A stretch of DNA of 64,000 nt from an uncultured Aquitalea sp. (GTDB taxonomy: Bacteria > Pseudomonadota > Gammaproteobacteria > Burkholderiales > Chromobacteriaceae): NCBI RefSeq assembly GCF_945957525.1, contig NZ_CAMFLA010000004.1, positions 1 to 64,000 of the forward strand, written 5' to 3'. The notes beneath the pieces were generated by a model, which saw only the letters and a list, made by a program, of their open reading frames with translations, did no database searches and had not been told where the DNA came from. Made by a program: the position numbers and the translations under genes. The number at the start of each line of letters is the position of its first letter. Within the stretch, counting starts at the first letter, position 1. Positions 37,935 to 59,009 of the stretch are shown here, one piece after another.

Positions 37935-37966
37935 AGGTTGGCCGAAGGCCGCGCTTCGGCCAACCT
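37935..37966. repeat. hairpin made of two inverted GTTGGCCGAAG words
   Basis: AGGTTGGCCGAAG (37935-37947) pairs perfectly with CTTCGGCCAACCT (37954-37966) four bases after the regulator stop. No U tract. The arms are two inverted copies of an 11-mer that occurs at seven further places in the host half (43493, 44195, 49917, 51358, 53768, 55500, 58989). Confidence 0.7.
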
Positions 37967-38096
37967 GCCACACGGCCTTGTGTCGCTCTGCAACAGAGGG
38001 GCCCGCGCGCACCGCCAGTTCAGGAAGTGACAAGACGCAAAGCTGAAGCCGGCAGATGACCGCCGATGCCGATGAAGCGTCATGCTGGGCAAAACC

Positions 38097-38120
38097 AAGG
38101 CCACCTCATCGGGCGGCCTT
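38097..38120. terminator. stem-loop between convergent genes
   Basis: AAGGCC (38097-38102) pairs with GGCCTT (38115-38120), with two more inner pairs, followed by AUCUUU. It lies between the AraC gene and the DDAH gene. Confidence 0.5.
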
Positions 38121-38141
38121 ATCTTTAAAATGCCAGCGCGT

Positions 38142-38903
38142 TCAGAACCGCAGCGACAGGCAGCTGACGCCGCCATCCAGTTTCTCGAACTCGCTCATCG
38201 GCACCTCCAGCACTGTCATGCCGCGGCGCTCGATTTCCGCGCGGATCACCGGAAAGCCGGCCGGCATGATTACCTTGTCGTTGACCCGGATGGCGTTGGC
38301 GGCATAAGCCTGTTCCGGCGGTACGGCGATGATGTCGAAAGCGGCGAATTCAGGCCTGGAAAGAAACTCGCCGGTAGCCAGCAGCACATTGTCTTCCAGA
38401 TAGCTGCAACCGGTTTTCAAGTGCAGGAACTCGGTCAGCGGCACCGCGCTGCCGCTCAGGCCGTAGCGTTGCAGAATGGCGATCAGCTGCTCGGCACCGG
38501 CGGCATTGGTGCGGCCGGACAGGCCGATGTAGTAGTGACGACCCACCATCATCACGTCGCCGCCCTCTAGTGTGCCCGGCGCTTCGATGCGCTCCACGCA
38601 CTCATAGAAACGACTTGCCACCGGCTCCATCAGGGCAGCCTCGCCGCGACGGGAATCCGCCCCAGGGCGCGTTACCACCACACAGTGGGGCGTGCACAAG
38701 GCGGCGTCCTCCACGAATACCGAATCCGGATAAGCATCCAGTGGTGGCAGGATGGTAAGCGCCACCCCGCACTGGCGCAGCGCAGCGATGTACTGCTCAT
38801 GCTGGCTCATGGCCAGCGCCAGATCGGGCAAGCCGAGATTGGCGCTGGTGATGCCCTCGATCAGGGACTGACAAGGCGTACGGACAATGACGTGCTGGAA
38901 CAT
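38142..38903 (-). CDS. dimethylarginine dimethylaminohydrolase-like (DDAH) protein
   Basis: 253 residues from the ATG at 38903, after AGGAGG. Guanidine-modifying fold: 'SVFVEDAAL' near residue 62, 'GTLEGGDVMMV' and 'GLSGRTN' substrate loops, and nucleophile C248 in the terminal GGVSC. DDAH cleaves methylated arginine to citrulline and amine. The family also includes arginine deiminase relatives, so the exact substrate is open. Confidence 0.88.
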   Translation of the reverse strand: MFQHVIVRTPCQSLIEGITSANLGLPDLALAMSQHEQYIAALRQCGVALTILPPLDAYPDSVFVEDAALCTPHCVVVTRPGADSRRGEAALMEPVASRFYECVERIEAPGTLEGGDVMMVGRHYYIGLSGRTNAAGAEQLIAILQRYGLSGSAVPLTEFLHLKTGCSYLEDNVLLATGEFLSRPEFAAFDIIAVPPEQAYAANAIRVNDKVIMPAGFPVIRAEIERRGMTVLEVPMSEFEKLDGGVSCLSLRF

Positions 38904-39072
38904 GCGGCCTCCTTGAGCGGGAATGAAATGCCAGCCTCCCCTATCGCAAGCCGACAATCAAGCCGGTGCGGTGGAAAACCCACTGCGCGGCACGCCGTGG
39001 CAACAGCAGAGCGCAAGTCGCGGCTATCCATCCCGGACGCCAACAACAAGCCAACAACAGCCTGGCCCTGCG

Positions 39073-39933
39073 TCAATGCGCTGGCTTGCCGGCATGATGC
39101 GCCGACGCCCACACCGTGGCGACAAGAATCACCGCGCCGCCTGCCAGCATTCGCGCGTCCGGCGCTTCGGCAAACAGCATCCAGGCCAGGCCAATGCCGT
39201 AGACCGGCTCCAGCGCGGACACCACCGCCGCCAGACGGGCAGGCACGCTGCGCAGGCTGGCGATGAACAGGCCATGCGCCAGCGCAGTAAAGACCACGCC
39301 CAGCAAAAGCAGCCGCCACCAGTCCGCCGCCGGTGCCGCCCACAACAGCGGCCAGCCCACCGGTGCCAGCAGCAAGGCAGCCACCCCGTTTTGCCAGAAC
39401 GCCACCCGCACCGGGCCGTAAACGGCAAGCTTGCGGTTGGCCAGCGCCAGCAAGGCGAACAGCAACCCGGACAGCACTGCCCACAACAGCCCCTGCGTGG
39501 CCGCGCTGCCAAAACGGTACTCCGGCACCACCAGCAACAAACCCACCGTCACCAGCGCGATCATCAGCTTGTCCTGCCGACTGGAACGCTCGCCGGTAGC
39601 CATGGGCTCCAGCAAGGCGACAAATACCGGAAAAGACGCAAAGCCCAGCAAGCCCACCGCCACGCTGGACAGCGCGATAGCGTGGAAAAAAGTCCACCAG
39701 TGCGCCGCCAGCAAAGCGCCGGACAAAAGAAACCGTCCGACATCGACGCGCGACACCGCCAGCGACACGCCCCGCCAGCGTGCAAACAGCAGCAAGGCCA
39801 GCGCGGCAAACACGGTGCGCCCCGCCACGATAACCCAGGCCCCGCCGCCAACAGTCTTGCCGAACAAGCCCGCCACGCCGAACAACAGCACAGCAAGGTG
39901 CAGGAACACCATGTTTTGTCTGGAATCGCTCAT
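39073..39933 (-). CDS. DMT-superfamily transporter (EamA)
   Basis: 286 residues from the ATG at 39933. Ten hydrophobic helices in two EamA halves ('LLFGVAGLFGKTVGGGAWVIV' and 'GLLWAVLSGLLFALLALAN'). Such transporters export amino acids or metabolites; substrate unknown. It lies downstream of the antiporter gene in the same direction. Confidence 0.88.
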   Translation of the reverse strand: MSDSRQNMVFLHLAVLLFGVAGLFGKTVGGGAWVIVAGRTVFAALALLLFARWRGVSLAVSRVDVGRFLLSGALLAAHWWTFFHAIALSSVAVGLLGFASFPVFVALLEPMATGERSSRQDKLMIALVTVGLLLVVPEYRFGSAATQGLLWAVLSGLLFALLALANRKLAVYGPVRVAFWQNGVAALLLAPVGWPLLWAAPAADWWRLLLLGVVFTALAHGLFIASLRSVPARLAAVVSALEPVYGIGLAWMLFAEAPDARMLAGGAVILVATVWASAHHAGKPAH

Positions 39934-39973
39934 ACCGCTACCACAAGGCAAGCAAGAAAAACAGGAAAGGAAA

Positions 39974-39994
39974 CGGGCCGCGCTCGGCGGCCCG
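39974..39994 (-). terminator. stem-loop after the antiporter gene
   Basis: CGGGCCGC (39974-39981) pairs with GCGGCCCG (39987-39994); on the minus strand a U/C-rich tract follows. Confidence 0.5.
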
Positions 39995-40023
39995 ACATCG
40001 GCCTTCACAGGCCCCGGCCCCCA

Positions 40024-41115
40024 TCAGGGGAAGATGGTCATGAACAGATAAGTGGCGAACAGCACCAGATGCACCACCCCTTGCAGAATGGTGGTGCGTC
40101 CCAGGCCCAGCGACAGAATGGCCACCATCATGGACAGGCTCAACAGCACCGTGGACTTGGCGTCGATGCCCAGCGCCAGCGGCCAGCCATTGAGGATGGA
40201 CACAATGGCCACCGCCGGAATGGACAGGCCAATACTGGCCAGCGCCGAACCCAGCGCCAGATTGAGACTGGTTTGCAGACGATCGGCGCGGGCGGCACGC
40301 CAGGCGGCCAGCCCCTCCGGCATCAGCACGATGGATGCGATGATGACGCCCACCAGCGCCGCCGGCGCGCCGACCGCAGCCACGCCGGCTTCGATCATCG
40401 GCGAGATGGACTTGGCCAGCAGCACCACCGAAACCAGCCCCACCACCAGGCAGAGCAAGCTGGCCAGCGCCACCTTGTTGCTGGGCGGCGCGGCGTGGGC
40501 GTCCTCGTCGGCGGCGGCGTTTTCCGGCAGGAAATAATCGCGGTGGCGCACGGTTTGCACAAACACGAAAGCGCCATACAGCACCAGCGACGACACCGCA
40601 ACAAAACCCAGCTGGCGGGCGTTGTAGTACGGGCCGACGATGGTGGTGGTGAAATTGGGCAAGATCAGCGTCAGGCCGATAATGGCCACCAGCGTGGACA
40701 GCGCGGCGTTGACGCCGCGCAGGGTAAAGCGCTGCTCGCCGTGCTTGCGACCGCCGGCCAGCAGGCACAGGCCGACAATGCCGTTGAGGATGATCATCAC
40801 CGTGGCGAAGATGGTATCTCGCGCCAGTGCCGAAGTGGCCTCGCCCCCCGACACCATCAAGGTGACGATCAGCGCCACTTCGATGGCGGTTATTGCGCCG
40901 GCCAGCACCAGCGTGCCGAAGGGTTCGCCCACGCGGTGGGCCACCACTTCCGCGTGATGCACGGCAGCCACCACGCCGGCCAGCAGGCCGGCCGCCAGCA
41001 GCGCCGGATAGAAACCACCCAGACTCAGGCCGGCCGCGCTGCCCGCCAGCAGCAGCCAGCCCAACAGGGGCGTGGCGATGGTCCATGCAGGTAAAGTTTC
41101 AGAATGCTGACTCAT
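40024..41115 (-). CDS. chaA: Ca2+/H+ antiporter ChaA-like
   Basis: 363 residues from the ATG at 41115, after AAGGA. Eleven hydrophobic helices; acidic loop 'ENAAADEDAHAAPP' in the middle separates two CaCA repeats ('GAITAIEVALIVTLM' and 'GSALASIGLSIPAVAIV'). It exchanges Ca2+ or Na+/K+ for protons at alkaline pH. Confidence 0.87.
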   Translation of the reverse strand: MSQHSETLPAWTIATPLLGWLLLAGSAAGLSLGGFYPALLAAGLLAGVVAAVHHAEVVAHRVGEPFGTLVLAGAITAIEVALIVTLMVSGGEATSALARDTIFATVMIILNGIVGLCLLAGGRKHGEQRFTLRGVNAALSTLVAIIGLTLILPNFTTTIVGPYYNARQLGFVAVSSLVLYGAFVFVQTVRHRDYFLPENAAADEDAHAAPPSNKVALASLLCLVVGLVSVVLLAKSISPMIEAGVAAVGAPAALVGVIIASIVLMPEGLAAWRAARADRLQTSLNLALGSALASIGLSIPAVAIVSILNGWPLALGIDAKSTVLLSLSMMVAILSLGLGRTTILQGVVHLVLFATYLFMTIFP

Positions 41116-41418
41116 CGTATTCCTTTTCAATAATTGGCTGATTTTTTTATTATCAGGATGGACATCCTGTGGAAAATTCAACTCAGACAAGGGTTTTCCA
41201 TTACTAGCCATTTTGTGCAAAATGCCAAAGTTCAGTATTTCATGACAAGAAAAAAACTTGCCGGGTTCCCGTACCGGGGCTTGTCATGCGTGCAGCCCTC
41301 CCCATCGCGGCTGTGATGGTTATAGCTTATTCAAGTGAATTGCTTGTTGCGATTCAGCGCAACATTCTGTCAGCATACGCACCGGGCATAAACACACAAA
41401 GATAATGGGGCTTCACAC
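41116..41418. other. 303-base divergent spacer with a 9-pair inverted repeat
   Basis: CATGACAAG (41241-41249) pairs with CTTGTCATG (41280-41288) around a 30-base loop that has its own CCGG/CCGG stem. The spacer separates the chaA start from the diguanylate cyclase start. No ORF; function of the structure unknown. Confidence 0.45.
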
Positions 41419-42651
41419 ATGCAAGTGAGCGGCAAGTATGTCGAGTCAGTCGCCACGCTGTGCATATTTTTTGCCTTTGCGACCGTGCTTACGCTGCTAC
41501 TGCATCGCAAGAACGCCAGCCCCAGCACCCGCTGCGCGGCCCTGGCGCAAATGGCCACCGTGGCCGGAGCCTTGGTGATTTACTGCCGGGACATTTTCCC
41601 GGCCCAGCTGGTTTTCGCTCTGTCAAACTCCCTATTCGAGGCTTGTATCTTTAGCTGTCTGCTGGGGGTGATCTACTATCACCGACTGGAGAAAACACTG
41701 CGGCCGCTGATGCAAGCTGTCGCCGCCGGCCTGGTCCTGTGCGGCGGCCTGATGGCGTCGATTCCGCTACTGACAGCGCAATACCGCTACCGCATGCTGA
41801 TGACCATGCCGTTTTTTTGCCTGGCGTACGGTCTGATTGCTTGGGTGATTGCACGCCGGCGAACGCCTTATCGTCCCATTTCACAAAGCATTTCTTTCTA
41901 TCTGGCCATAACCGGCCTGCTTTGTTCGCTGCTGCGCCTGATCGATGCCGGCACCATCACCGACATGTTCCCGCCGCCTTCGCATGTGAATTTCCAGTCC
42001 ATGCTGATGAACATTCTGGCGCTGACCATGTTCGGCACTGCGTTGACGCTGGTTTTCTGGCAGATCGAAGCGCAGAACCAACGCCTGCGGCAACTAGCGG
42101 AACATGACGGTCTGACCGGGCTGCAGAATCGTCGCAGCTTCATGGAGCAATGCCGGCAAAGACTGCAACAATCGCGCCCGGTTGCGCTGCTGATTTTCGA
42201 CATAGACCACTTCAAGCAGATCAACGACCGCTTCGGCCATATGTATGGCGACAAAGTGCTGCGGGAGTTGGGCGAGCACCTGCGGACATTCGCCCGGCGC
42301 GACGATTTGCTGGCCCGCTACGGCGGCGAGGAATTTTGCCTGTTTTCGCACGATGCCACTCTGGACCAGCTTGCCAGTTTAGCCGAGCGGCTGCGCGCCA
42401 GCGTGGCTGGTCTCCGATTTGGCGAGGGGCCGGACTGCGTCATGCGTATCACCATCAGCATTGGCGGCGTGGCCCACCCAGGGCCGGATACCGCCCTGAC
42501 GCTGGAAAGCCTGTTGCAAACGGCGGATGCCCGGCTATACATGGCCAAGCGCAGCGGCCGCAACCAGGCCATCGTGGGCGACGCGCTGATCGAAGCCGTC
42601 GCAGAAACCAATCAACGCCTGCCCGTTTCGGCCAACCATCCATCAAGCTGA
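41419..42651 (+). CDS. membrane diguanylate cyclase
   Basis: 410 residues. Six to seven hydrophobic helices in the first 215 residues, then a GGDEF domain: 'DGLTGLQNRRSF', 'FDIDHFKQINDRFGH', and the active GGEEF; RRDD five residues before it is an intact inhibitory site. It should make c-di-GMP in response to a membrane signal. Second such enzyme in the window besides the prophage one. Confidence 0.93.
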   Translation: MQVSGKYVESVATLCIFFAFATVLTLLLHRKNASPSTRCAALAQMATVAGALVIYCRDIFPAQLVFALSNSLFEACIFSCLLGVIYYHRLEKTLRPLMQAVAAGLVLCGGLMASIPLLTAQYRYRMLMTMPFFCLAYGLIAWVIARRRTPYRPISQSISFYLAITGLLCSLLRLIDAGTITDMFPPPSHVNFQSMLMNILALTMFGTALTLVFWQIEAQNQRLRQLAEHDGLTGLQNRRSFMEQCRQRLQQSRPVALLIFDIDHFKQINDRFGHMYGDKVLRELGEHLRTFARRDDLLARYGGEEFCLFSHDATLDQLASLAERLRASVAGLRFGEGPDCVMRITISIGGVAHPGPDTALTLESLLQTADARLYMAKRSGRNQAIVGDALIEAVAETNQRLPVSANHPSS

Positions 42652-42743
42652 AAGCGGCTGACAAAACCTTAGCAGGCTCCTGAGCGCAGCCAGTACACGG
42701 CGTACGGCAAGCACAGGGATTTTGCTGGCCAGCCCAGGGCCAG

Positions 42744-43697
42744 CTAGCCCGCCTGTCCCAGAATGTAGCGCGCACTGGCTTCATCCGTGACCAGCCCGGT
42801 GAGCCAGCCGCCCCGCAAAACGGCTAGAATGGCCGCCGCCTTGCGTTCGCCGCCGGCGAAAGCAATCACCGGCCGGCGGGGCGGGCGCTCCAGCGGCAGA
42901 CTGGTAATGCGCTGCTGGATGGGACTGTCCACCAATTCGCCCGCTTCATTGATGGGCCGGCCGATCAACTCGGCCACTGCGTTGGCGGATTTCAACCGCG
43001 CAATCTCGGCGCTATCCAGAAAGCCGTCCGCCTGCAAGGCGCAGCCTTCGTCAATGGTGCCCACGCCGATAAAAGTCACATCGGCCTTTTGCCCCATTTC
43101 CGCCACCACCCGGTACAAGCGGTGATTGCACCACATGCTGCGATCTTCCGCGCTGTCGGCGTACAGGGGGGCGGGCAAGAGGAAGTAGCGGCTCTGGGTT
43201 TTTTCCGAAGCCGGCAGCGCCACATCGTAGCGATTGGAAGAACCATCATGGGCAATGGTGCCTATCAGGGACACCAGCCGGTGCTGCGGGCACACCAATT
43301 CGGCCATTTCCTCGATGATGGCCTTGAGCGTCCGCCCCGACCCCAGCTCTACCACCATCGGTTTTTCCACGTCCAGATAGCGCTCAAACACTGCTGCGCC
43401 AGCCACCGCCAGCTTGCGATGAAGCTCGGCGGCGCTGTCGCCGTCGGCCGGCACCACCTCGCACATGGCCAGCCCGAACCGCTGGCGCAGCGCTTCGGCC
43501 AACTCCAGACATTCCGCCACCGGGTGATGCACCGTCACCTTGACCAATCCGCGCTCCACCGCGCTGGCCACCAGTCGCTGCGCCACCTGGCGCGACACAT
43601 TCAGCTGGTCCGCCACTTCGTTTTGCGTTTTCCCCGCCACGTAATACAACCAGGCGGCGCGCGCCGCCTGGTCAAACTTTTCCTGCTGCTTGGGCAT
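42744..43697 (-). CDS. SorC-family sugar-binding regulator of the polyol operon
   Basis: 317 residues. N-terminal helix-turn-helix (KTQNEVADQLNVSRQVAQRLV, residues about 23-43) and a C-terminal sugar-phosphate-binding domain ('VVELGSGRTLKAIIEEM', 'TFIGVGTIDEGC'), the plan of SorC/DeoR regulators such as Rhodobacter SmoC. It is transcribed divergently from the operon and should respond to a polyol or its phosphate. Confidence 0.9.
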   Translation of the reverse strand: MPKQQEKFDQAARAAWLYYVAGKTQNEVADQLNVSRQVAQRLVASAVERGLVKVTVHHPVAECLELAEALRQRFGLAMCEVVPADGDSAAELHRKLAVAGAAVFERYLDVEKPMVVELGSGRTLKAIIEEMAELVCPQHRLVSLIGTIAHDGSSNRYDVALPASEKTQSRYFLLPAPLYADSAEDRSMWCNHRLYRVVAEMGQKADVTFIGVGTIDEGCALQADGFLDSAEIARLKSANAVAELIGRPINEAGELVDSPIQQRITSLPLERPPRRPVIAFAGGERKAAAILAVLRGGWLTGLVTDEASARYILGQAG

Positions 43698-43878
43698 GTT
43701 TCCCCCTCTTCTTTTGACTGTCGCTGCCCGAAATCCGCTTGCCGTTTATCACTGGCTTCGCCGCCGGCGTCAAGTACGGCGCGCTTTTGCGCCCTTGCCG
43801 GCAGGTTTGACTATGTGCGGCAAGTGCGTAAATGAATCATGGTGCTTTGCAACATCCCCGCTTTCCGCTCAGAGCTGC

Positions 43879-43928
43879 TTGACACGGTTTTCCATTTTAC
43901 CGAATATTTGCCCACAACAAGAGCAAAT
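43879..43928 (+). promoter_or_regulatory. promoter and likely SorC operator of the polyol operon
   Basis: TTGACA (43879-43884), 18 bases, AATATT (43903-43908). Overlapping it, ATTTGC (43906-43911) and GCAAAT (43923-43928) form an inverted repeat with 11 bases between; a direct AAATGC repeat follows. Position over the -10 fits control by the divergent regulator. Confidence 0.55.
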
Positions 43929-43964
43929 GCCCAAATGCATCTGCCGCTACAACGGAGACATGCA

Positions 43965-44738
43965 GTGAAACTCACCCATAAAACGGCCATCCTCACCGGA
44001 TCGGCCAACGGAATCGGCCTGGCCGTCGCCCGCCGCTACCTGCAAGAAGGCGCTTGCTGCCTGCTGGCCGACTTGCGCCTGAGCGAAGGCATGCAAGAGC
44101 TGGTCCGGCAATTTCCCGGCCAGACTGCGCTGATAGCCGCCGATGTCACGCTCGAAGCGGACATCGACCGCATCATCGCCGCCGCCGTCTCTCGCTTCGG
44201 CCAACTGGACATCCTCTACAACAACGCCGCCATCTTCGACCTCGCCCCGCTGCTGGACGCCAGCCGCGACAGCTACGACCGCCTGTTCAACGTCAATGTG
44301 AAGGGCATGTTCTTCCTGATGCAGGCTGCCGCCCGCCAGATGGTGAAGCAGGGCCGGGGCGGCAAGATCGTCAACCTGTCCTCGCAGGCCGGGCGTCGGG
44401 GCGAAGCGCTGGTATCCCATTACTGCGCCACCAAGGCGGCCGTGATCAGCTATACCCAATCGGCCGCGCTAGCGCTGGCCGAGCACGGCATCAACGTCAA
44501 CGCCATCGCCCCCGGCGTGGTGGATACCCCGATGTGGTCGGAGGTGGACGCGCTGTTCGCCCGCTACGAAGGCCTGCAGCCCGGTGAGAAAAAACGCCGA
44601 GTGGGCGAAGCCGTTCCGCTGGGCCGCATGGGCCGCCCGGACGACCTGGTGGGCGCCGCCGTGTTTCTGGCCTCCGCCGACGCCGACTACATCACCGCCC
44701 AGACGCTGAATGTGGACGGCGGCAACTGGATGAGCTGA
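43965..44738 (+). CDS. short-chain dehydrogenase, sorbitol dehydrogenase-like
   Basis: 257 residues from GTG 43965 (GGAG seven bases upstream); the longer frame from 43839 includes the promoter and is rejected. TGSANGIG (11-18), NNAA (86-89), S140, Y153, K157 give the classical SDR set. First gene of the operon; by analogy with SmoS it oxidises D-sorbitol (or galactitol) to a ketose using NAD. Confidence 0.88.
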   Translation: MKLTHKTAILTGSANGIGLAVARRYLQEGACCLLADLRLSEGMQELVRQFPGQTALIAADVTLEADIDRIIAAAVSRFGQLDILYNNAAIFDLAPLLDASRDSYDRLFNVNVKGMFFLMQAAARQMVKQGRGGKIVNLSSQAGRRGEALVSHYCATKAAVISYTQSAALALAEHGINVNAIAPGVVDTPMWSEVDALFARYEGLQPGEKKRRVGEAVPLGRMGRPDDLVGAAVFLASADADYITAQTLNVDGGNWMS

Positions 44739-44833
44739 CCCCCTCCCCCGAATCCCCATCCGCAGGCCGGCGGACATCACCGGCCATTGCTGCACCTTGC
44801 TGTACTACAACACCAATGAGGAGACAGACGAAC

Positions 44834-46162
44834 ATGCAACTGCAAGCACCCGCATTTTCCTTCGGCAAACTGGCGCTGGCCTGCGGCTTCGCCCTGACGG
44901 CGCTGTCCGCCGGCGCGGCCACCACGCTGACCATCGCCGCGCTGAACAACCCGGACATGGTTGAACTGAAAAAGCTGTCGCCGGCTTTCGAAAAACAGAA
45001 TCCGGACATCAAGCTCAACTGGGTGGTGCTGGAAGAAAACGTGCTGCGCCAACGCGTCACCACCGACATCGCCACCAATAGCGGCAAGTTCGACGTGATG
45101 ATGATCGGCACGTACGAAGCGCCGATCTGGGCGAAAAAAGGTTGGCTGTACCCCATGGACAAGCTGTCCGCCGACTATGACGTCAACGACGTGGTGAAAA
45201 CCGCGCGCGACGGCCTGTCCTACGGCGGCAAGCTGTACGCTCTGCCCTTCTATGTGGAAAGTTCGATGACTTTCTACCGCAAGGACCTGTTCGCCAAACT
45301 GGGTCTGAACATGCCGGAAAAGCCCACCTACACCCAGATCGCCGAGTACGCCAAGGCGCTGAAGGAAAAAGGCGGCGTATACGGCATCTGTCTGCGCGGC
45401 AAGGCCGGCTGGGGCGAGAACATGGCCTACCTGAGCACGCTGGTGAACGCCAACGGCGGCCGCTGGTTTGACGAAAAGTGGCATGCCACCATCGACAGCC
45501 CGGAATGGAAAAAGTCGGTCAACTTCTATGTGGACCTGCTGAAGAATTACGGCCCGCCGGGAGCCAGCACCAACGGTTTCAATGAAAACCTGACCCTGTT
45601 CGCCAGCGGCAAGTGCGGCATGTGGATCGACGCCACCGTGGCGGCCGGCATGTTGTTCAATCCGAAGGAATCGCAAGTGGCCGACAAGGTGGGCTTCGCC
45701 ATGGCGCCAAGCGGGGTCACTGCCAAGGGCAGCAGCTGGCTGTGGTCCTGGTCGCTGGCCATCCCCAAGTCGTCCAAACAGGAACAAGCCGCCAAACAGT
45801 TTGTGCAGTGGGCCACCTCCAAGGAATACATCAAGCTGGTAGCGTCCGACCTGGGCTGGACTTCCGTTCCGCCGGGCACCCGCATCTCCACCTACAACCA
45901 GCCTGAATACCTGAAGGCCGCGCCTTTCGCCAAATTCGTGCTGAACGCCATTCAATCGGCCAACCCGAACGACGCCACGCTGAAGAAAGCGCCTTACAGC
46001 GGCATCCAGTTTGTCGGCATTCCCGAGTTCCAGTCCTTCGGCACCGTGGTGGGTCAGTCCATCTCCGGCGCACTGGCCGGCACCACCTCCGTGGATGCCG
46101 CGCTGAAGGCCGGCCAGGCTGCCGCCAACCGCGCGGTCGTCCAGGGCGGCTATCAGAAGTAA
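44834..46162 (+). CDS. mtlE: polyol ABC transporter substrate-binding protein
   Basis: 442 residues from ATG 44834. Signal peptide with 'LALACGFALTALSAGAA'; then the family-1 extracellular solute-binding fold ('TIAALNNPDMVELKKLSPAFEKQ', 'YAPFYVESSMTFYRKDLF'-type region). It matches MtlE/SmoE of mannitol/sorbitol systems by size and context. A 9-pair hairpin directly after the gene could raise its level over the permeases. Confidence 0.9.
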   Translation: MQLQAPAFSFGKLALACGFALTALSAGAATTLTIAALNNPDMVELKKLSPAFEKQNPDIKLNWVVLEENVLRQRVTTDIATNSGKFDVMMIGTYEAPIWAKKGWLYPMDKLSADYDVNDVVKTARDGLSYGGKLYALPFYVESSMTFYRKDLFAKLGLNMPEKPTYTQIAEYAKALKEKGGVYGICLRGKAGWGENMAYLSTLVNANGGRWFDEKWHATIDSPEWKKSVNFYVDLLKNYGPPGASTNGFNENLTLFASGKCGMWIDATVAAGMLFNPKESQVADKVGFAMAPSGVTAKGSSWLWSWSLAIPKSSKQEQAAKQFVQWATSKEYIKLVASDLGWTSVPPGTRISTYNQPEYLKAAPFAKFVLNAIQSANPNDATLKKAPYSGIQFVGIPEFQSFGTVVGQSISGALAGTTSVDAALKAGQAAANRAVVQGGYQK

Positions 46163-46189
46163 GCCAGTCTTACGACAACAACAAGACGG

Positions 46190-46212
46190 ACGGCGCGCCC
46201 GCCGCGCGCCGT
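46190..46212 (+). other. intra-operon hairpin after the binding-protein gene
   Basis: ACGGCGCGC (46190-46198) pairs with GCGCGCCGT (46204-46212), loop CCGCC, no U tract. Comparable stem-loops between malE and malF stabilise the upstream mRNA. Confidence 0.6.
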
Positions 46213-46254
46213 ACCGTTGTGCTTCCATTCACACTCTAGATTCCGGAGAGGCCC

Positions 46255-47190
46255 ATGCCATCATCCGCCCATACAGCCTTGCGCGCCGACGCTCCACCGG
46301 CCCAGGCCGCGCGCGGCCCCGGTCGCTGGACCCAACGCTGGCTGATGTCGCCCGCCGTGCTCAGCCTGCTGCTGTGGTCTGTTGTTCCCCTGCTGATGAC
46401 CATCTGGTTTTCGCTGATCCGCTACAACCTGCTAAGCCCGGACCAAACCGGCTTTGTCGGGCTAGACAACTACCGCTTCATGTGGAGCGATCCGTCCTTC
46501 TTCCCGTCCATTTTCAACACCCTGGTGCTGACCGTGTCGGTACTGCTGATTTCCGTTGTCGGCGGCGTACTGCTGGCCGTGCTGTTCGACCAGGAATTTC
46601 CCGGTCGCGGCGTGGCCCGCCTGCTGGTGATCGCACCCTTCTTCGTCATGCCCACCGTCAGCGCGCTGATCTGGAAAAACATGCTGTTGCACCCGGTATA
46701 CGGCCTGTTTGCCGCGGCGCTTCACGCCGTGGGCCTGCAACCGGTGGACTGGCTGGGCGAATACCCGATGTTTTCCATCATCCTGATCGTCAGCTGGCAA
46801 TGGCTGCCATTTGCTTTCCTGATCCTGCTGACCGCCATCCAGTCGCTGGACCCGGAGCAGAAAGAAGCCGCGCAGATCGACGGCGCCGGCCCGTTCTCGA
46901 TGTTTTTCTACATCGTGCTGCCCCACCTCAAGCGCGCCATCGGCGTGGTGGTGATGATTGAAACCATCTTCTTGTTGTCGATTTTCGCCGAGATCTACAC
47001 CACCACCTCGGGCGGTCCGGGCACGGCCACCACCACGCTGTCCTTCCTGATCTATTCGCTGGGCCTGCAGCAATTCGATGTGGGCATGGCGTCCACCGGC
47101 GGCATTCTGGCCGTGCTGCTGGCCAATATCGTGTCGGTGTTTCTGGTGCGCATGCTGGCCAACAACCTCAAGGGGGAGAACGAACGATGA
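46255..47190 (+). CDS. mtlF: polyol ABC transporter permease
   Basis: 311 residues, CGGAGAGG before ATG. Six membrane helices; the cytoplasmic EAA loop reads 'EQKEAAQIDGAGPF'. Belongs to the MalF-type binding-protein-dependent permeases. Its stop overlaps the next ATG (ATGA). Confidence 0.9.
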   Translation: MPSSAHTALRADAPPAQAARGPGRWTQRWLMSPAVLSLLLWSVVPLLMTIWFSLIRYNLLSPDQTGFVGLDNYRFMWSDPSFFPSIFNTLVLTVSVLLISVVGGVLLAVLFDQEFPGRGVARLLVIAPFFVMPTVSALIWKNMLLHPVYGLFAAALHAVGLQPVDWLGEYPMFSIILIVSWQWLPFAFLILLTAIQSLDPEQKEAAQIDGAGPFSMFFYIVLPHLKRAIGVVVMIETIFLLSIFAEIYTTTSGGPGTATTTLSFLIYSLGLQQFDVGMASTGGILAVLLANIVSVFLVRMLANNLKGENER

Positions 47191-48688: not shown

Positions 48689-48727
48689 CAAGAGCGGCCA
48701 GCAGGCCGCTGTGAGGAGAACCCCATC

Positions 48728-49861
48728 ATGGCAAGCGTTACCCTGAAGAACATCAGCAAGCGCTACGGCGACAGCCCGGAAGTGATGCGCGACATCAATC
48801 TGGACATCGCCGACGGCGAATTCGTCGTCTTCGTCGGCCCCAGCGGCTGCGGCAAATCCACCCTGCTGCGCATGATCGCCGGGCTGGAAGACATCAGCGG
48901 CGGCGATCTGGCCATCGGCGACGAACGCGTCAACGACGTGCCGCCGTCCAAGCGCGGCATCGCCATGGTGTTCCAGTCCTACGCGCTCTACCCGCACATG
49001 AGCCTGTACGACAATATGGCCTTCGGACTGAAGCTGGCCGGCAAATCGAAAGAAGAAATCCACAAGGCCGTGACCAAGGCCGCCGCCATCCTGCACATCG
49101 ACCATCTGCTGGACCGCAAACCCAAAGCCTTGTCCGGCGGCCAGCGCCAGCGTGTGGCCATTGGCCGCGCCATCACCCGCGAGCCCAAGGTATTTTTGTT
49201 TGACGAACCCCTGTCTAATCTGGACGCGGCCTTGCGCGTGAAAATGCGGCTGGAGTTTTCCCGCCTGCATCAGGATCTGAAAACCACCATGATCTACGTC
49301 ACTCACGACCAGGTGGAAGCCATGACCCTGGCCGACAAGATCGTGGTGCTGTCCGCTGGCCGCATCGAACAGGTGGGCAGCCCGAAAACCCTGTACCACC
49401 ACCCGGCCAACCGTTTTGTCGCTGGCTTCATCGGCTCGCCCAAGATGAACTTCATCGATGGCGTGGTGGCAAGCGCTGACAACCAGAACGTGGTGGTGGA
49501 CATCAAGGGCGGCGGCCGCCAGACCGCCTGCGTCAATGGCGAATCGCTGCGTCCGGGCGATGCGGTCACGCTGGGCGTACGCCCGGAATACCTGCAACTG
49601 GACAGTGAAGACCCGAGCATCGGCGGTACGGTCACCACCGTGGAAGGCTTGGGCGACTTCTCTTATCTGTACGCCGAATCGCCGGCCTCGGAAGAGCCGC
49701 TGGTCAGCCGCATTCCCGACACCATGGAAGTGGCCAACAGCAGTCGTGTGGGCTTCAGCATCAAACCCCATCACTGCCACCTGTTCAACAAGGAGGGCCT
49801 GGCCATGCCGCGAACCACGCCGGCGCAAAGCCGCAACGGCAGCCCCGCGCTGACCTCCTGA
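48728..49861 (+). CDS. mtlK: polyol ABC transporter ATPase
   Basis: 377 residues. Walker A GPSGCGKST (37-45), signature LSGGQ (135-139), Walker B VFLFDEP (155-161), and a C-terminal regulatory OB domain as in MalK/UgpC. It powers the MtlEFG importer. Confidence 0.93.
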   Translation: MASVTLKNISKRYGDSPEVMRDINLDIADGEFVVFVGPSGCGKSTLLRMIAGLEDISGGDLAIGDERVNDVPPSKRGIAMVFQSYALYPHMSLYDNMAFGLKLAGKSKEEIHKAVTKAAAILHIDHLLDRKPKALSGGQRQRVAIGRAITREPKVFLFDEPLSNLDAALRVKMRLEFSRLHQDLKTTMIYVTHDQVEAMTLADKIVVLSAGRIEQVGSPKTLYHHPANRFVAGFIGSPKMNFIDGVVASADNQNVVVDIKGGGRQTACVNGESLRPGDAVTLGVRPEYLQLDSEDPSIGGTVTTVEGLGDFSYLYAESPASEEPLVSRIPDTMEVANSSRVGFSIKPHHCHLFNKEGLAMPRTTPAQSRNGSPALTS

Positions 49862-49978
49862 ACCCCTTGCCGCCGGCCCCCGCCAGCGGCTGAACCCCTT
49901 TCGTCGCCCCCGCCCTGTTGGCCGAAGCCAGGGCGCGGGCCGGCTGCGCCATCAAAACAACGCCTACAGGAATCCACC

Positions 49979-51382
49979 ATGAGCGACTCTCGCCAACCTT
50001 ATGCCGACTGCTGGCTGCACATCGGTGCCGGCTCCTTTCACCGCGCCCATCAGGCCTGGTATCTGGACCAGCTGGAGAAGCACGGCCAGACGCCGTGGGA
50101 GCTGGCGCTGGCCAACATCCGCGCCGACATGGCCCCGCTGCTGGACAAGCTGGCGGCCCAGCACGGCGAGTACACGCTGGAAACCATCTCTCCGGCCGGC
50201 GAGCACCGCTACGAAGTGATTCGCGCCATCCGCACCATCCTGCCGTGGGAAGCCGACCTGGCCTCGCTGATCGCCAAGGGTGCGCAGGCCGGTACGCGCG
50301 TCATCTCCTTCACCGTGACCGAAGGCGGCTACTATCTTGACCAGCACCTGCAGCTGGACACGGCCAACGCCGACCTGGCGGCGGACCTGAACGGCGGCCT
50401 CAACACCATCTACGGAGCCATTGCCGCCATCCTGCGCGCGCGCAGCGCGGCTGGCGATGCCCCGGTGACCCTGCTCAACTGCGACAACCTGCGCCACAAC
50501 GGCGAGCGCTTTCGCAGCGGCCTGCAACAATTCCTCAGCCTGCGCGGTGAAACCACGCTGCTGGCCTGGGTGGAAAAACACACCAGCTCGCCCAACACCA
50601 TGGTGGATCGCATCACTCCACGCCCTACCCCGGAAGTGGTGGCCCGGGTAGAGGCCGCTACCGGCCGCCACGACCCCTGCGCCATCATGGCCGAACCTTT
50701 CATCCAGTGGGTGGTAGAGGACAATTTCATCGGCGGTCGTCCAGCGCTGGAGGCGGTAGGCGTGGAAATGGTGGCCTCGGTACTGCCTTATGAAGAAGCG
50801 AAGATCCGCATCCTCAACGCCAGCCACAGTTGTATCGCTTGGGCCGGCACGCTGATCGGCCTCGGCTACATCCATGAAAGCACTGCGGTGGACTCCATCC
50901 GCGAACTGGCATGGCGCTACGTCACCCATGACGTCATCCCCTGCCTCAGCCCCAGCCCGCTGGATCTCGCCGCCTATCGCGACACCGTGCTCGACCGTTT
51001 CAGCAACCCCTATATTCTGGACAGCAACCAGCGCGTGGCCGCGGACGGCTTCTCCAAAGTGCCGGGTTTCATCGCGCCCACGCTGCAACAATCCGTCGCC
51101 GCCGGCCGCCAACCGGTGGATACCGCCGTGCTGCCCGCGCTTTTCCTGCGTTTTCTGCAGCGCTGGCAGGCGCAGAGCCTTCCCTACGACTATCAGGACG
51201 GTATCATGGACGCGTCGGCCTGCCGCCGCATGCTGGCCGCCGACGATGTGGCAGGCGCTTACGCCGCCGACCCCATGCTGTGGGGCGAACTGGCCGGCAC
51301 CGACACCCTGCGCGCCCTGCTCGACGCCGCGCTGACCCGGGTGGACGACTGGTACAAGTTGGCCGAAGTCCCGCAGCACTGA
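49979..51382 (+). CDS. mtlD: mannitol 2-dehydrogenase
   Basis: 467 residues. N-terminal nucleotide motif [11 protein letters not shown] (15-25) and 'FTVTEGGY' near residue 110 are those of long-chain polyol dehydrogenases; '[11 protein letters not shown]' and 'NTMVDRITP' complete the family pattern. It oxidises D-mannitol (also D-arabitol) to D-fructose (D-xylulose) with NAD. One GTTGGCCGAAG word lies at its 3' end. Confidence 0.93.
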
Positions 51383-52874: not shown

Positions 52875-53852
52875 ATGAACCAGCTTGAAAAACTCAAGGC
52901 CCATACCGTGGTGGTGGCCGACACCGGCGACTTCCAGCTGCTGGAGCAATACACCCCGCGCGACGCCACCACCAACCCATCGCTGATCCTCAAAGCCTCA
53001 CAAAGCCCTGCCTATCGCGGACTGGTGATAGACACGCTGCGCGAACTACGCCATCTGCCGGCGGCCGAACAGATCGACGCGCTGCTGATCGCCTTCGGCC
53101 TGAAGATTCTGGACAAGGTGCCCGGCCGCGTTTCCACCGAAGTGGACGCCCGCCTCTCCTTTGACACCGCCGCCACCGTAGCCAAAGCCCGCCAGCTGAT
53201 GGCCGCCTACGCCGCCGCCGGCGTATCGCGCGGGCGCGTACTGATCAAGATAGCCGCCACTTGGGAAGGCATTCAGGCCGCCGCCATTCTTGAAGCCGAG
53301 GGCATAAACTGCAACCTCACCTTGCTGTTCTCGCCGGTGCAGGCCGCCGCTTGCGCCCAGGCTGGCGTAACGCTGATTTCCCCCTTCGTTGGCCGTATCT
53401 ACGACTGGTACAAGAAGCAGGCCGGCACGGGGTGGAACGAAGCCGCCCAGGCCGGCGCCAACGACCCTGGCGTGCGCTCGGTGCGCCGCATTTACCAGCT
53501 GTTTCGCCAACACGGCTTCGTCACCGAAGTCATGGGCGCCAGCTTCCGCAATACTGGGCAGATCCTCGCGCTGGCCGGCTGCGACCTGCTCACTATCAGC
53601 CCGGACCTGCTGCAACAACTGCGCGATAGCGACGGCGACGCTCCGCGCCGGCTTTTCGCCGACCTGCCGGATGCAGCCGATGCGCTGCCCGCCAGCCTGC
53701 TGGATGACGCGAGACATGAAAGCCGTTTCCGCTTCCTGCTCAACGACGACGCCATGGCCAGCGAGAAGTTGGCCGAAGGCATCCGTCTGTTTGCCGCCGA
53801 TACGGTCAAGCTGGAAAACTGGCTGGCGGCGCTGCATGAAGGGAGCGTCTGA
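52875..53852 (+). CDS. tal: transaldolase
   Basis: 325 residues, eight bases after the kinase. Type-1 TalB pattern: '[10 protein letters not shown]' and '[13 protein letters not shown]' with Schiff-base K125; D16 near the N-terminus. It interconverts sugar phosphates of the pentose phosphate route. A transaldolase inside a mannitol operon links xylulose 5-phosphate to glycolysis. Confidence 0.92.
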
Positions 53853-54981: not shown

Positions 54982-56601
54982 ATGAACATCTCTCAGCGAC
55001 TGGCCATCACCCTGGGCATCGCCTTGCTGGCCCTCATCGCCATCGGCGGCTCCGGCCTCATGCAACTCAACAGCGCCAACCAGCGCTTCGATTACATGAA
55101 CGCCAATACTTTCCCAAGCATCCACAATCTGGACGCCATGCAAGGCAGCCTGACCAACGCGCGGCTGGCCACCTATCGTCACGTCATCGCCGCGTCGGCC
55201 GATGAAAAAGCCAAACACCAGCAAACCATCGATGAATCCGATAAAAAGATGAACGACATGCTGGCGGATTACGAAAAGAACCTGCTTTCTTCGGATAGCG
55301 ACAAGCAGATGCTGGATAAGGACCGCGCGCTGATGAAGGAGTATCAGTCCACGCGCGACAGCGTGCTGAAGGTATCCCGCGACGGGCAGAACGCCGAGGC
55401 GCAGAAAATGCTGCTGGGCGGCACGGTGTCGGCCGGTGCCCGCGCCATGCAGCAACAACTGAACGAGCACATCGAATTCAACTACAAGAACGCCGCAAAG
55501 TTGGCCGAAGACAATCGCTCCGCCTATAAATCGGCCTTCGCTTTGTCCATGAGCGTGATCGCCGGCGGCGTACTGATCTGCGTCGCACTGGGCTGGCAGC
55601 TGTTCAGCCACATCCGCGCGAGCCTGTCCGGCATCCGCGACACCATGCTGAAAGTGGGCGAGTCGCTGGACTTCCGTCTGCGCGTCGCCGTACTGCGCAA
55701 GGATGAAGTGGGCCAGACTGCCTCCGCCTTCAACAACCTGCTGCAGCAATTGCAGCAAAGCTTCCTCACCATCCGCCGCGGCATCGAGGCAGTGGACGGC
55801 TCGATTGAAAACATGGCCACCAACACCACGGAAATCGCCCGCAGCTCCGAACTGCAAAGCGAGGCGGCCTCCGCTATGGCGGCCGCCATCGAGGAAATGA
55901 CGGTCAGCATCAACCACGTAGCCGACCGCGCGCTGGAAGCCAACAACCAGACCAGCGCCGCCGGCAGCATTGCCCAGGAAGGCGGCAAAGTGATCGACTC
56001 CACGGTAGCCGGCATTAATGCGGTATCCGGCTCTGTCAGCGACGCCGCCGGCCACATCGACCAGCTCAAGGCCGACAGCCAGACCATCGCCACCGTGATG
56101 GGCATCATCAAGGACATTGCCGAACAGACCAATCTGCTGGCGCTCAACGCCGCCATCGAGGCCGCCCGCGCCGGCGAAATGGGCCGCGGTTTTGCCGTGG
56201 TGGCCGACGAAGTGCGCAAACTGGCCGAGCGCACGGCGCGCTCCACTACCGAGATATCTTCGGTCATCGTCAAGATGGAGCAAGGCACGCAGGAAGCGGT
56301 AGGCAGCATGGAAGTGGTGGTGGAAAGGGCCAATCGCGAGGCCGACGGCGCCCGTCAGGCCAGCGAGGCCATCGAGCAGATTCGCCGCAACACCCGTGAA
56401 GCGATGGCGCTGGTACAGGATATTTCCGGCAGCATCGTCGAGCAGACCAGCACCAGTACCGCCATTGCCCAGCGGGTGGAGCAAATCGCCCAGATGGCGG
56501 AAGAGAACTCCTCCGCGGCCAGCAGTTCCGCCGATGCGGCTCGCGAGCTGCATCAGCAAGCACGCAGCATTCTGGGGACCGTGGCGCAATATCAGGTGTA
56601 G
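54982..56601 (+). CDS. transmembrane methyl-accepting chemotaxis protein
   Basis: 539 residues. Helix 1 at about 8-28, a four-helix-bundle sensor (4HB_MCP) to about 185, helix 2 at about 187-207, HAMP, then the signalling domain with tip '[20 protein letters not shown]'. Ends without a tethered pentapeptide. Position beside the polyol operon suggests a possible role in taxis to sugars, unproven. Confidence 0.95.
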
Positions 56602-56634
56602 CAGCGCGTCGGCGTCCGGCTTGTCAATAATCCG

Positions 56635-56657: not shown

Positions 56658-56712
56658 CAGGCTGCCGAGAAAGCCATCGGCCAAGCTAGGTCATTCAATG
56701 TCACGTAGAAAG

Positions 56713-56812
56713 GCTGACAAAAATCAGTATCACGGCCGAGGCAAGGCGCGCCGACGCGGGCAGTAATGAGTACGGCAAGGAGGCGCAACGCAGCATCAGG
56801 CGTGTTGTCAGC
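56713..56812. repeat. about 100-base dispersed repeat element, copy A
   Basis: Spacer 56602-56937 has no gene. It holds an element bounded by GCTGAC (56713-56718) and GTCAGC (56807-56812), with core GTACGGCAAGGAGGCGC. A related core in opposite orientation is at 58838-58927. Such elements recall intergenic repeats of Neisseriales, but only two are seen here. Confidence 0.45.
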
Positions 56813-56937
56813 AGCTCATATTGATTCTGCTCCACAGCCTTGCCATTGGCTCCCCCGCCCTTGCCTTGCAATGGCGCCTGGCTTTCGGATCTGGCAACAA
56901 TCACCGCGCTGCAATCTGACGCAGACGGTGCTTGCCG

Positions 56938-57846
56938 TCAGCCAGCAAGCCCGTCGGCGCGTCGCAGGTCGGCCAGATAATCCGCCACTTCGCCTTGCAG
57001 CCAACTGGTAAACACCTCCTGCTTGGCGCGGGCGCTTTCCCGCACCGGCCACACCAGCCAGCACGGATAGGGGTAAGGCGCGACGATATCGGTCAGCCTG
57101 ACCAGTTGGCCGCTGTCCAGATCGCGCTGCACCAGGCTGCGCCTCTCCAGCGTGATGCCCAAACCCTGGCGCACCATGCCGAGAATCAGATTGGAATCGT
57201 TGATCCACATGCTGGCCTCGCCCGGCTCGTCGATGCCCGCCAGCTGGCACCAGGGCTGCCAGCTTTCCACCGAACGGATCAACGGCCCAGCCATGATTTC
57301 CTGCGGCGTCTTCGGCAAACGTCCGCCATTGAAGGCGGGCGACGCCACCATCAGCAACTCGTCGTCAAACAGCTTCAGCTGACGCAAGCCCTCCCAGTCG
57401 CCTTGCCCGATGCGGATGCCCACATCCACCAGCCCCTGACGCAGGTCCTGAATATCCAGACTGGCGCGAATACTGACGCGATAACGCGGATACAGGGCCT
57501 GGAAACGGTGCAAGCGCGGCAGCAGCCATTGCGCGCCGAACGAGGGCAACACCGCCAGCGCCAGATCGCTCTCGCGCGGTCGCGCCTGAATCAGCCGGGT
57601 CGCCTCGCTGAGCTCGCCCAAACCGCTGCGCACCTGCAGCGCATAAAAGCGCCCTTCCTCGGTCACGCGCAAACCGCGTCCTTCACGCACAAACAAGGGC
57701 AGGCCCAGCATATCCTCCAGCAGGCGGATCTGCTGGCTGATGGCCGAGTGGGTAACGTGCAATTCTTCGGCGGCGCGGGTAATGCCGCCCAGACGGGCGA
57801 CGGCTTCGAAGCTGCGCAGGGCAGCCAGTGGCGGCAGGGCTTTCAT
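56938..57846 (-). CDS. LysR-family transcriptional regulator (GcvA-like)
   Basis: 302 residues. N-terminal winged helix (LPPLAALRSFEAVARLGGIT, 'TRAAEELHVTHSAISQQIRLLE') and C-terminal effector domain. Divergent from a DUF2917 and GST gene pair, which it likely regulates. Confidence 0.92.
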   Translation of the reverse strand: MKALPPLAALRSFEAVARLGGITRAAEELHVTHSAISQQIRLLEDMLGLPLFVREGRGLRVTEEGRFYALQVRSGLGELSEATRLIQARPRESDLALAVLPSFGAQWLLPRLHRFQALYPRYRVSIRASLDIQDLRQGLVDVGIRIGQGDWEGLRQLKLFDDELLMVASPAFNGGRLPKTPQEIMAGPLIRSVESWQPWCQLAGIDEPGEASMWINDSNLILGMVRQGLGITLERRSLVQRDLDSGQLVRLTDIVAPYPYPCWLVWPVRESARAKQEVFTSWLQGEVADYLADLRRADGLAG

Positions 57847-57938
57847 GTAAGAAAAACTAACACATTTCGGCAGAAATCATCAATTTTCCTTTTTATTTCA
57901 CCTGCTTATAGTAGCAATACTGCTTGAGGAGAAATCAA

Positions 57939-58199
57939 ATGGAACATGTGCTGCATCTTGGCCTGCAACGCCACGAGCTCGTGGTGCTGCAAATGGCACA
58001 CCCCGGCCGGGCGGTCGCCGTCAGCGGCTCGCACTGGCTCACCATCAACGGGCTGGATATCTGCCTGCATGCCGGCCAGCATGCGCTGCTGCCTGCCGGT
58101 AAACTCTTGCTGGAAGGCGATGGACGCTTGGATCTGCAAGGCCTGCCCGCAAAAGAGCGCGCAGGAAATGGCCTGAAACTGGGCCTGATTTCGGTTTGA
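57939..58199 (+). CDS. DUF2917 family protein
   Basis: 86 residues from ATG 57939 after GAGGAG. The pattern 'VSGSHWLTINGLDICLHAGQ' is that of DUF2917, a short cupin-like family often found beside LysR regulators. Function unknown. The GST gene follows after 19 bases. Confidence 0.82.
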   Translation: MEHVLHLGLQRHELVVLQMAHPGRAVAVSGSHWLTINGLDICLHAGQHALLPAGKLLLEGDGRLDLQGLPAKERAGNGLKLGLISV

Positions 58200-58218
58200 A
58201 TATTATTGGGGAGGCAAT

Positions 58219-58827
58219 ATGCAACTGATTGGCATGCTCGATTCACCCTACGTCAGAAGGGTGGCGATTTCTTTGCGGTTGTTGGGCGTACCGTGCGAGC
58301 ACCGTCCCTTGTCGGTGTTTCGCCACATGCGGGAGTTCCGGCAAATCAATCCTGTCATCAAGGTACCGACCCTGGTGTGCGACGACGGCGAAACATTGAT
58401 GGATTCCAGCCTGATTCTGGACTATCTGGAAAGACTGACCCCGCCGGAACGGCGACTGACGCCGGAAAGCCTGCCGCAACGGCAGCGCTGCTTGCACGGC
58501 ACCGGGTTGGCGCTGGCCGCCATGGAGAAAGCAGTACAGGCCTTTTACGAATGCCAGTTGCGCCCGGCCGACGCGCGCCATGCGCCGTGGCTGGAGCGCG
58601 TCGCGGAGCAGTTGCTGGCCGCCTGCGCCGGCATGGAGGCCTATCTGCAAACAACGCCGCCAGACGCGGCCCGGCCGGATCAGGCCAGTCTCAGCATCGC
58701 CGTGGCCTGGCGCTTCATTGTGGAGCGTGTGCCGGAACACGTGGCCGCTTCCTCTTTCCCCGCACTGGCCAACTGGAGCGCGGCGGCGGAAGGGCACCCC
58801 GATTTTCTGGCCTGCCCTTTCGAATAA
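58219..58827 (+). CDS. glutathione S-transferase
   Basis: 202 residues. N-terminal thioredoxin fold with 'LDSPYVRRVAISLRLLG' (S9 as likely catalytic residue), 'KVPTL' cis-Pro and 'DSSLILDYLE'; C-terminal helical domain. Detoxification or stress role. Confidence 0.92.
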   Translation: MQLIGMLDSPYVRRVAISLRLLGVPCEHRPLSVFRHMREFRQINPVIKVPTLVCDDGETLMDSSLILDYLERLTPPERRLTPESLPQRQRCLHGTGLALAAMEKAVQAFYECQLRPADARHAPWLERVAEQLLAACAGMEAYLQTTPPDAARPDQASLSIAVAWRFIVERVPEHVAASSFPALANWSAAAEGHPDFLACPFE

Positions 58828-58837
58828 CACCGGCTAC

Positions 58838-58927
58838 AAAACCTCCGAGCCTGCGGCGCCTCTCCTTGCCGTACGCCGAGCGCGGCCTGCGCCAGCCCGC
58901 CCCGCCTCAGCTTCTTTGCGAGGTTTT
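58838..58927. repeat. dispersed repeat element, copy B
   Basis: Bounded by AAAACCTC (58838-58845) and GAGGTTTT (58920-58927). Its reverse complement contains GTACGGCAAGGAGAGGCGC, close to the core of the copy at 56713. Confidence 0.45.
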
Positions 58928-58954
58928 GACAGCGGCCTTCCGCGCACGCAAGAA

Positions 58955-58983
58955 AAAACGCCATCCTTCCCGGATGGCGTTTT
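58955..58983. terminator. bidirectional terminator between GST and RidA genes
   Basis: CGCCATCC (58959-58966) pairs with GGATGGCG (58972-58979), flanked by A on one side and U on the other, so it works for both convergent genes. Confidence 0.85.
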
Positions 58984-59009
58984 GCATGGTTGGCCGAAGA
59001 CCGGCCAGC

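Follow-up and report, generated by a model that had tools for sequence, protein, structure and literature searches.

To our knowledge, only two families have firmly established DNA uptake words. The DNA uptake sequence (DUS) of the Neisseriaceae is a non-palindromic word of 10 to 12 bases, present in very high copy on both strands, with dialects by genus that differ in one or two bases. In the sections cited here its CTG core is described as strictly required (Frye 2013). Papers of 2024 and 2025 give, in the passages concerned, eight dialects; two of them state the CTG core and a third seeks new dialects through CTG at positions 6-8. The DD region of the receptor ComP has, in the part of the source cited, four cysteines in two disulfides (Berry 2016). 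Here we describe a candidate uptake word in a neighbouring family, found in a 64 000-nucleotide stretch from the genus Aquitalea (the window, which is contig C4:1-64000 of the 4.05-Mb genome G000). It is the 11-mer GTTGGCCGAAG, to which a sequence-only reading had drawn attention as a candidate DNA-uptake or other signal.

Nine exact copies had been claimed for the window, and all nine proved correct in coordinate and strand, against a mean of 0.04 in 100 dinucleotide shuffles (largest 1). When up to one mismatch is allowed there are 18 matches, with 1.69 expected. By our own gene calls four copies are intergenic (37937, 37954, 49917 and 58989), in line with the three to four counted before, and five are genic. 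The use of TTG for Leu in genic copies was also borne out: four of the five read in the frame TTG GCC GAA (Leu-Ala-Glu), and the fifth, at 44195, lies on the strand opposite its gene. The copies are as follows.

37935..37966: inverted pair of the 13-mer AGGTTGGCCGAAG, holding the 11-mers at 37937 (plus) and 37954 (minus), behind a gene that ends at 37931
43493..43503, minus strand: exact word in gene 42744-43697 (putative sugar-binding domain), read TTG GCC GAA
44195..44205, minus strand: exact word in the short-chain dehydrogenase gene 43935-44738, on the opposite strand
49917..49927, plus strand: exact word, intergenic, between 49861 and 49979
51358..51368, plus strand: exact word inside the mannitol dehydrogenase gene 49979-51382, close to its 3′ end, read TTG GCC GAA
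53768..53778, plus strand: exact word in the transaldolase/fructose-6-phosphate-aldolase-type gene 52875-53852, read TTG GCC GAA
55500..55510, plus strand: exact word in the chemotaxis-receptor gene 54982-56601, read TTG GCC GAA
58989..58999, plus strand: exact word, intergenic, between 58827 and 59010

Genome-wide, GTTGGCCGAAG occurs 1069 times in G000 and its reversed control 5 times; the 10-mer GTTGGCCGAA occurs 1368 times (control 21) and a second form, GTTTGCCGAA, 616 times (control 8). In a 464-kb sample of the genome, which is non-random in that 320 kb of it come from one contig, GTTGGCCGAA was found 150 times where a third-order Markov model expects 1.9, and the second form 71 times where 1.8 are expected. 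Together the two forms stand at one per 2.0 kb on average. The real genes have 114 copies of GTTGGCCGAA, whereas synonymous-codon shuffles within each of the 424 genes left 7.4 (sd 2.4) and never more than 15 in 100 rounds. Leu-Ala-Glu tripeptides are spelled TTG GCC GAA in 80 of 199 cases, though CTG is by far the commonest Leu codon. The word is in excess over both composition and codon models, as the DUS is, and the outcome of the codon-preserving shuffles, one of the two possible refutations named by the sequence-only reading, favours that reading.

The core of the word is nearly invariant. The sample has 119 exact 11-mers. Any one substitution within positions 6-10 (CCGAA) is seen 0-2 times, while position 4 tolerates T (49 copies) and position 11 tolerates A (15) or C (14). 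A and G are favoured upstream, so that the full form is AGGTT[G/T]GCCGAAG. Of the 150 sample copies of GTTGGCCGAA, 114 are genic and 36 intergenic; with 15.4% of the sample noncoding, the intergenic density is 1.8 times the genic one. No such enrichment is seen for the second form (11 of 71 between genes). One common frame accounts for 71 of the 114 genic copies of GTTGGCCGAA. The second form and the remaining 10-mers in the window outside its prophage region are these.

35262..35272, plus strand: second form GTTTGCCGAAG, a few bases past the tRNA-Ser gene 35166-35256, at the prophage edge
39165..39175, minus strand: second form GTTTGCCGAAG, in the EamA-type gene 39073-39933
42626..42636, minus strand: 10-mer GTTGGCCGAA with A as the next base, within the GGDEF gene 41419-42651, on the opposite strand
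44860..44870, minus strand: second form GTTTGCCGAAG, in the solute-binding-protein gene 44834-46162, on the opposite strand
57310..57320, minus strand: second form GTTTGCCGAAG, in the LysR-type gene 56938-57846
59728..59737, minus strand: second-form 10-mer GTTTGCCGAA
61750..61760, minus strand: 10-mer GTTGGCCGAA with A as the next base, within the DUF945 gene 60741-62345, on the opposite strand
62461..62470, minus strand: second-form 10-mer GTTTGCCGAA

The family was surveyed in 61 genomes, in groups g1 to g10 that correspond to genera. Group g1 is the genus of G000 and includes Aquitalea aquatica, A. magnusonii and A. palustris; g4 includes Crenobacter luteus, g5 Crenobacter oryzisoli and strain JH1-16, g6 Gulbenkiania mobilis, and g9 Pseudogulbenkiania subflava and P. 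ferrooxidans 2002 (G045). The ComP of g2 resembles those of five named Chromobacterium, and we therefore take g2 to be this genus. By these names the family is Chromobacteriaceae. The 11-mer has at least 100 copies in eight genomes (G000, G035, G036, G037, G044, G045, G046 and G047; completeness is 80% for G044, with 7% contamination, and 84% for G046). G033 has 39 copies and G034 has 34, and the remaining 51 genomes have at most 19. G033 and the g10 genomes are low in the 11-mer because they use other dialects: unbiased 10-mer counts in 80 kb from each of 15 relatives gave GTTGGCCGAG for G033 (g4) and GTTGGCCGCA for both g10 genomes sampled. Over whole genomes, GTTGGCCGCA has 1871-2895 copies in all 13 g10 genomes and 8-58 in the other 48, and GTTGGCCGAG reaches 1940 and 1590 copies in the two genomes of g4, while none of the other 59 has more than 165.

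In all, 23 of the 61 genomes carry one of the three dialects GTTGGCCGAA (common to five genera), GTTGGCCGCA and GTTGGCCGAG, all of which contain GTTGGCCG. One or a few bases separate the dialects, which follow the phylogeny given by an rpoB tree, as do those of the DUS. The 38 wordless genomes are nine others of g1, 19 of g2, four of g3 and six of g7; no word of this kind stood out in the seven of them that were sampled (three g1, two g2, one g3 and one g7). An assignment of the word to Chromobacterium did not hold. Five named Chromobacterium loci (93 kb) contain no GTTGGCCGAA, GTTTGCCGAA or GTTGGCCGCA and one GTTGGCCGAG, and G000 shares its genus with the Aquitalea genomes. Outside the family, none of 386 genomes from 50 other families of the order (399 genomes were drawn) had more than 47 copies of GTTGGCCGAA, the one dialect counted there.

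AGGTTGGCCGAA aligns without gaps to the DUS, with 8 of 12 positions identical to AG-DUS and 9 of 12 to AG-mucDUS and simDUS, in the spelling that we take these last two to have. The two systems have in common a 12-base frame, the AG lead-in of most DUS dialects, C6 and G8, and, in two of the three dialects here, A10. The change from GTTGGCCGAA to GTTGGCCGCA is that of king3DUS (+9, A to C), and Simonsiella, like G000, has two word forms in one genome. In the DUS, CTG at +6 to +8 and A at +10 are invariant; here, in another family, CCG takes that place with hardly any substitution. Because CCG replaces the CTG core of all eight dialects, we do not file the word as a DUS dialect in the published sense, although as far as its sequence tells it seems to work like one. 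The uptake signal sequence of the Pasteurellaceae has the same kind of distribution and presumed logic. It differs, in the passages cited, in its unrelated word (AAGTGCGGT or ACAAGCGGT), in its inner core GCGG, which is absent from the word here, and in its candidate receptor PpdA/ComN.

The first 35 kb of the window are a prophage region, and there the word is scarce.

1..35165: prophage region carrying genes for terminase, portal, head and tape measure; the left end falls outside the contig, which begins within the region
12515..12525, minus strand: the only word of the region, the 10-mer GTTGGCCGAA (at 12516) followed by C, in the frame TTG GCC GAA

Ten prophage genes were compared with PHROG, and named matches were obtained for the terminase, the portal, two head or protease genes, the tape-measure gene and a minor head protein; the right end of the region adjoins the tRNA-Ser gene 35166-35256. 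One word lies in the first 35 262 bases of the window, where 18.1 would be expected at the density of the remaining sample (P 2.6e-7), a figure that comes from one prophage and one sample of chromosome. The exact 11-mer is absent from the prophage region, as the sequence-only reading had said, and the comparison with the prophage, where equal density would have counted as a refutation, also favours that reading. The DUS, too, is scarce in DNA of recent arrival; here this feature is seen in one prophage region. The gene at 12246-13502 (minus strand), which resembles a methyl-accepting chemotaxis receptor and lies on the opposite strand among the prophage head genes, carries the region's only word.

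A receptor candidate is encoded on contig C9 of G000 (about 75207-75602). The best Protein Data Bank (PDB) matches of this pilin are the ComP entries 2m3k (2e-10), 5hz7 and 2nba, followed by a major pilin at 3.8e-5, and its Pseudogulbenkiania ortholog matches PDB ComP at 3.8e-13. In the opposite direction, 137 extracted pilin-like sequences were searched with a ComP piece. Of the 42 matches the top 37 all belong to the ComP class, and from the four pilin loci of G000 the piece found the C9 pilin alone; the PilE-like pilin of G000 had no match to ComP in the search. By sequence, then, the C9 pilin is an ortholog of ComP. Pfam ComP_DUS was tried and rejected as a receptor finder, since it gives a match in every one of the 61 genomes (above the cut-off in 60) and puts the PilE-like pilin first in G000; orthology was therefore settled by phmmer against the PDB and back. 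The ComP class is present in 13 of 13 g10 genomes, six of six g7 genomes and the g8 genome, in none of the four g3 genomes, and also in Aquitalea, Chromobacterium, Crenobacter, Gulbenkiania and Pseudogulbenkiania, which makes nine of the ten genera.

ComEC and DprA were found in all 22 genomes tested, with or without the word, and so do not discriminate. In two loops that contact DNA in Neisseria ComP, carriers and non-carriers differ: the motif N[TAV]D occurs in 22 of 23 ComP orthologs from word-bearing genomes and in 2 of 19 from wordless ones. The comparison comprises two independent pairs on the tree and was made after the fact, and we rejected the loop residues as proof of co-evolution. 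As a separate matter, the ComP-class genes of g7 (L173, L175, L183, L187, L191 and L192) are strongly diverged, the Neisseria ComP piece missing four of the six, and in one g7 genome (G038) the search reports a stop inside the ComP-class match.

The genus-bound dialects together with the ComP ortholog in G000 lead us to prefer DNA uptake over another signal, and of the two options left by the sequence-only reading it is the first that gains support. We consider it quite probable that the word is a DNA uptake signal working like the DUS of the Neisseriaceae, most likely as a second branch of ComP/DUS-like uptake signalling with a changed core in a neighbouring family. We infer that the minor type IV pilin orthologous to ComP would bind AGGTT[G/T]GCCGAAG on free DNA, that pilus retraction would bring the bound DNA in, and that ComEC/DprA-dependent transformation would recombine it. 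Because stretches with the word would be taken up more often, molecular drive would build its density up to roughly one copy in 2 kb. Genic copies would then mostly read TTG-GCC-GAA, and the word would be scarce in DNA that arrived recently.

Several observations weigh against this proposal. The alignment register places CCG where all eight published dialects have CTG, A10 becomes G in the g4 dialect GTTGGCCGAG, and 1% of shuffled 12-mers match some DUS dialect equally well (9 of 12). ComP orthologs are present in wordless genomes too (Aquitalea, Chromobacterium and g7), as are ComEC and DprA in carriers and non-carriers alike. Unlike Neisseria ComP, the 23 orthologs from word-bearing genomes lack the four-cysteine DD region, having two or three cysteines, and the two disulfides are stated, in the passage concerned, to be essential for DUS-specific binding by ComP. 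Pfam ComP_DUS scores the PilE-like pilin of G000 higher than the C9 pilin (81.5 versus 41.9 bits). Association with terminators is weak, with five inverted pairs within 45 bases among 221 sites of G000, the one genome in which this share was measured. Finally, a word-free stretch of 14.5 kb is also found in host DNA (G000 contig C1, about 34214-48761; L010, L011). It holds rpoA, secY, ribosomal-protein and EF-Tu genes, and therefore absence of the word by itself has no power to mark foreign DNA, since strong sequence constraint can do the same.

Some of these points would suit an uptake word that is not homologous to the DUS and is recognised by a different surface pilin, such as a minor pilin of the FimT/GspH-like kind, the likeness to the DUS being convergence. 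The differing core, the share of shuffled 12-mers that match as well, and the ComP orthologs that occur without the word and lack the DD region all agree with it, and other minor pilins are present in the same genomes. We nevertheless hold it to be unlikely, though a serious alternative: the ComP piece singles out the C9 pilin among the pilin-like sequences of G000, the four g3 genomes have neither a ComP-class gene nor the word, and the loop motif goes with the word, if in two independent pairs only.

Considerably less probable is a chromosome-maintenance or recombination signal, such as Chi, the FtsK orienting polar sequences (KOPS), or a nucleoid-protein or methylation site. Words of this class can also be over-represented genome-wide. 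Chi and the polar chromosome words are, like the word here, short and over-represented in one lineage, and the main form contains the palindrome GGCC; the second form GTTTGCCGAA, however, does not. Nor is there a clear strand polarity, with 77 plus and 91 minus copies in 320 kb of one contig where GC skew is steadily negative (one 80-kb block within it has 17 plus and 32 minus), which disfavours a polar word of the Chi/KOPS type. That forward and reverse totals over the genome are about equal is uninformative here because contig orientation is arbitrary. Unlike the Chi and polar words, moreover, the word is scarce in the prophage region and changes its spelling between genera; this change and the absence of the word from sister species would be unlike a maintenance system that is kept.

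It is very improbable that the word serves as a terminator or a regulatory hairpin, or that it merely follows from preferred codons and peptides (Leu-Ala-Glu): the 1.8-fold intergenic density, the inverted pair right behind a gene in the window and the 71 of 114 genic copies in one frame would fit, but inverted pairs are only 5 among 221 sites and 114 of 150 copies of GTTGGCCGAA are genic, codon-preserving shuffles (7.4 versus 114) rule out codon or peptide bias as the cause, and wordless sister species lack the word at homologous sites in all 33 pairs compared, some of them perhaps paralogous. The inverted pair at 37935-37966 does fold as the 13-pair hairpin proposed for it (-29.2 kcal/mol, z -4.0), and the gene before it does end at 37931. 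It has no T-run and is not among the terminator-like sites. A strong hairpin or terminator habit was not borne out, with one or two of the five inverted pairs adjoining four T, and a terminator element as the main role is rejected on these counts.

The history of the word was followed on an rpoB tree of 27 genomes, which left out G044 (gene in pieces) and G009 (no match). G000 is sister to the eight other genomes of the Aquitalea genus in the tree, and the shortest history of the word has three changes, namely one loss ahead of g7, g2 and g1, a regain in G000, and a further change in g3. Retention in G000 with losses alone takes four changes by our own count, and the tree does not decide between the two histories. 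Comparison of homologous sites in wordless Aquitalea showed a broken word in all 33 pairs (57 rows minus 24 duplicates; L210), which cover seven sites, some of them perhaps paralogous.

In the sections cited, Frye 2013 reports no obvious DUS in five genomes, which include Lutiella nitroferrum 2002, Pseudogulbenkiania sp. NH8B and C. violaceum, and places the over-represented 10-mers of the five DUS-less genomes in Table S1D. C. violaceum is given there as having no ComP by BLAST, and the DUS system is dated after the split from this species. In the open-licence PubMed Central literature, 'uptake sequence' together with five genus names was found, among the matches listed, only in Frye 2013. 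The four 10-mer spellings were not found there as whole words, and the 11-mer was found only in works unrelated by title. Lutiella nitroferrum 2002 is, we take it, the same strain as P. ferrooxidans 2002. The bare word may therefore stand, uninterpreted, in Table S1D of Frye 2013.

An earlier origin can be considered, in which uptake of sequence-tagged DNA by a ComP-type pilin predates the split of Neisseriaceae and Chromobacteriaceae. The Chromobacteriaceae branch would read a CCG-core family (AGGTTGGCCGAA, -GCA and -GAG) with a ComP that lacks the DD region, and the word would have been lost in several lineages (Chromobacterium, g7, g3 and most Aquitalea), with the receptor mostly left in place and its loops changed. 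We regard this history as evenly balanced between right and wrong, given that the three-change history has a regain in G000 and losses alone need four changes.

Other repeats and words were met in the survey. Nine genomes from the genus of the window (G001-G009) show a mild excess of GTTTGCCGAA, 25-66 copies against 4-22 of the reversed control, which may be what remains of a lost word. The g7 genome G038, which has no uptake word, holds another abundant word family, around CTACGACGCG, in stretches L103-L106. In the g10 genome G056 (stretches L107-L110) a 15-copy repeat with TTGGCGAAGTTG stands beside the dialect GTTGGCCGCA. A CRISPR-like array in G003, from the genus of the window (L065 15018-16605), has 26 copies of a 28-base repeat at a constant 60-base spacing with differing spacers. 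In the window itself, 59445-60620 (minus strand) encodes a fatty-acid desaturase with an ISL3-transposase-like tail, a known NCBIfam family and ordinary.

A further set of uptake words in relatives of Neisseria would, if the proposal is true, redate the origin of the DUS system, and it would show joint shifts of receptor and word to be possible, even in the core. If the origin does lie before the split of the two families, the CTG core and the DD region would be specialities of the Neisseriaceae. Aquitalea offers carrier and non-carrier species in one genus, for testing what keeps such a word. The word may also serve as a marker of long-resident as against recently acquired DNA, and as a guide to laboratory transformation of these strains.

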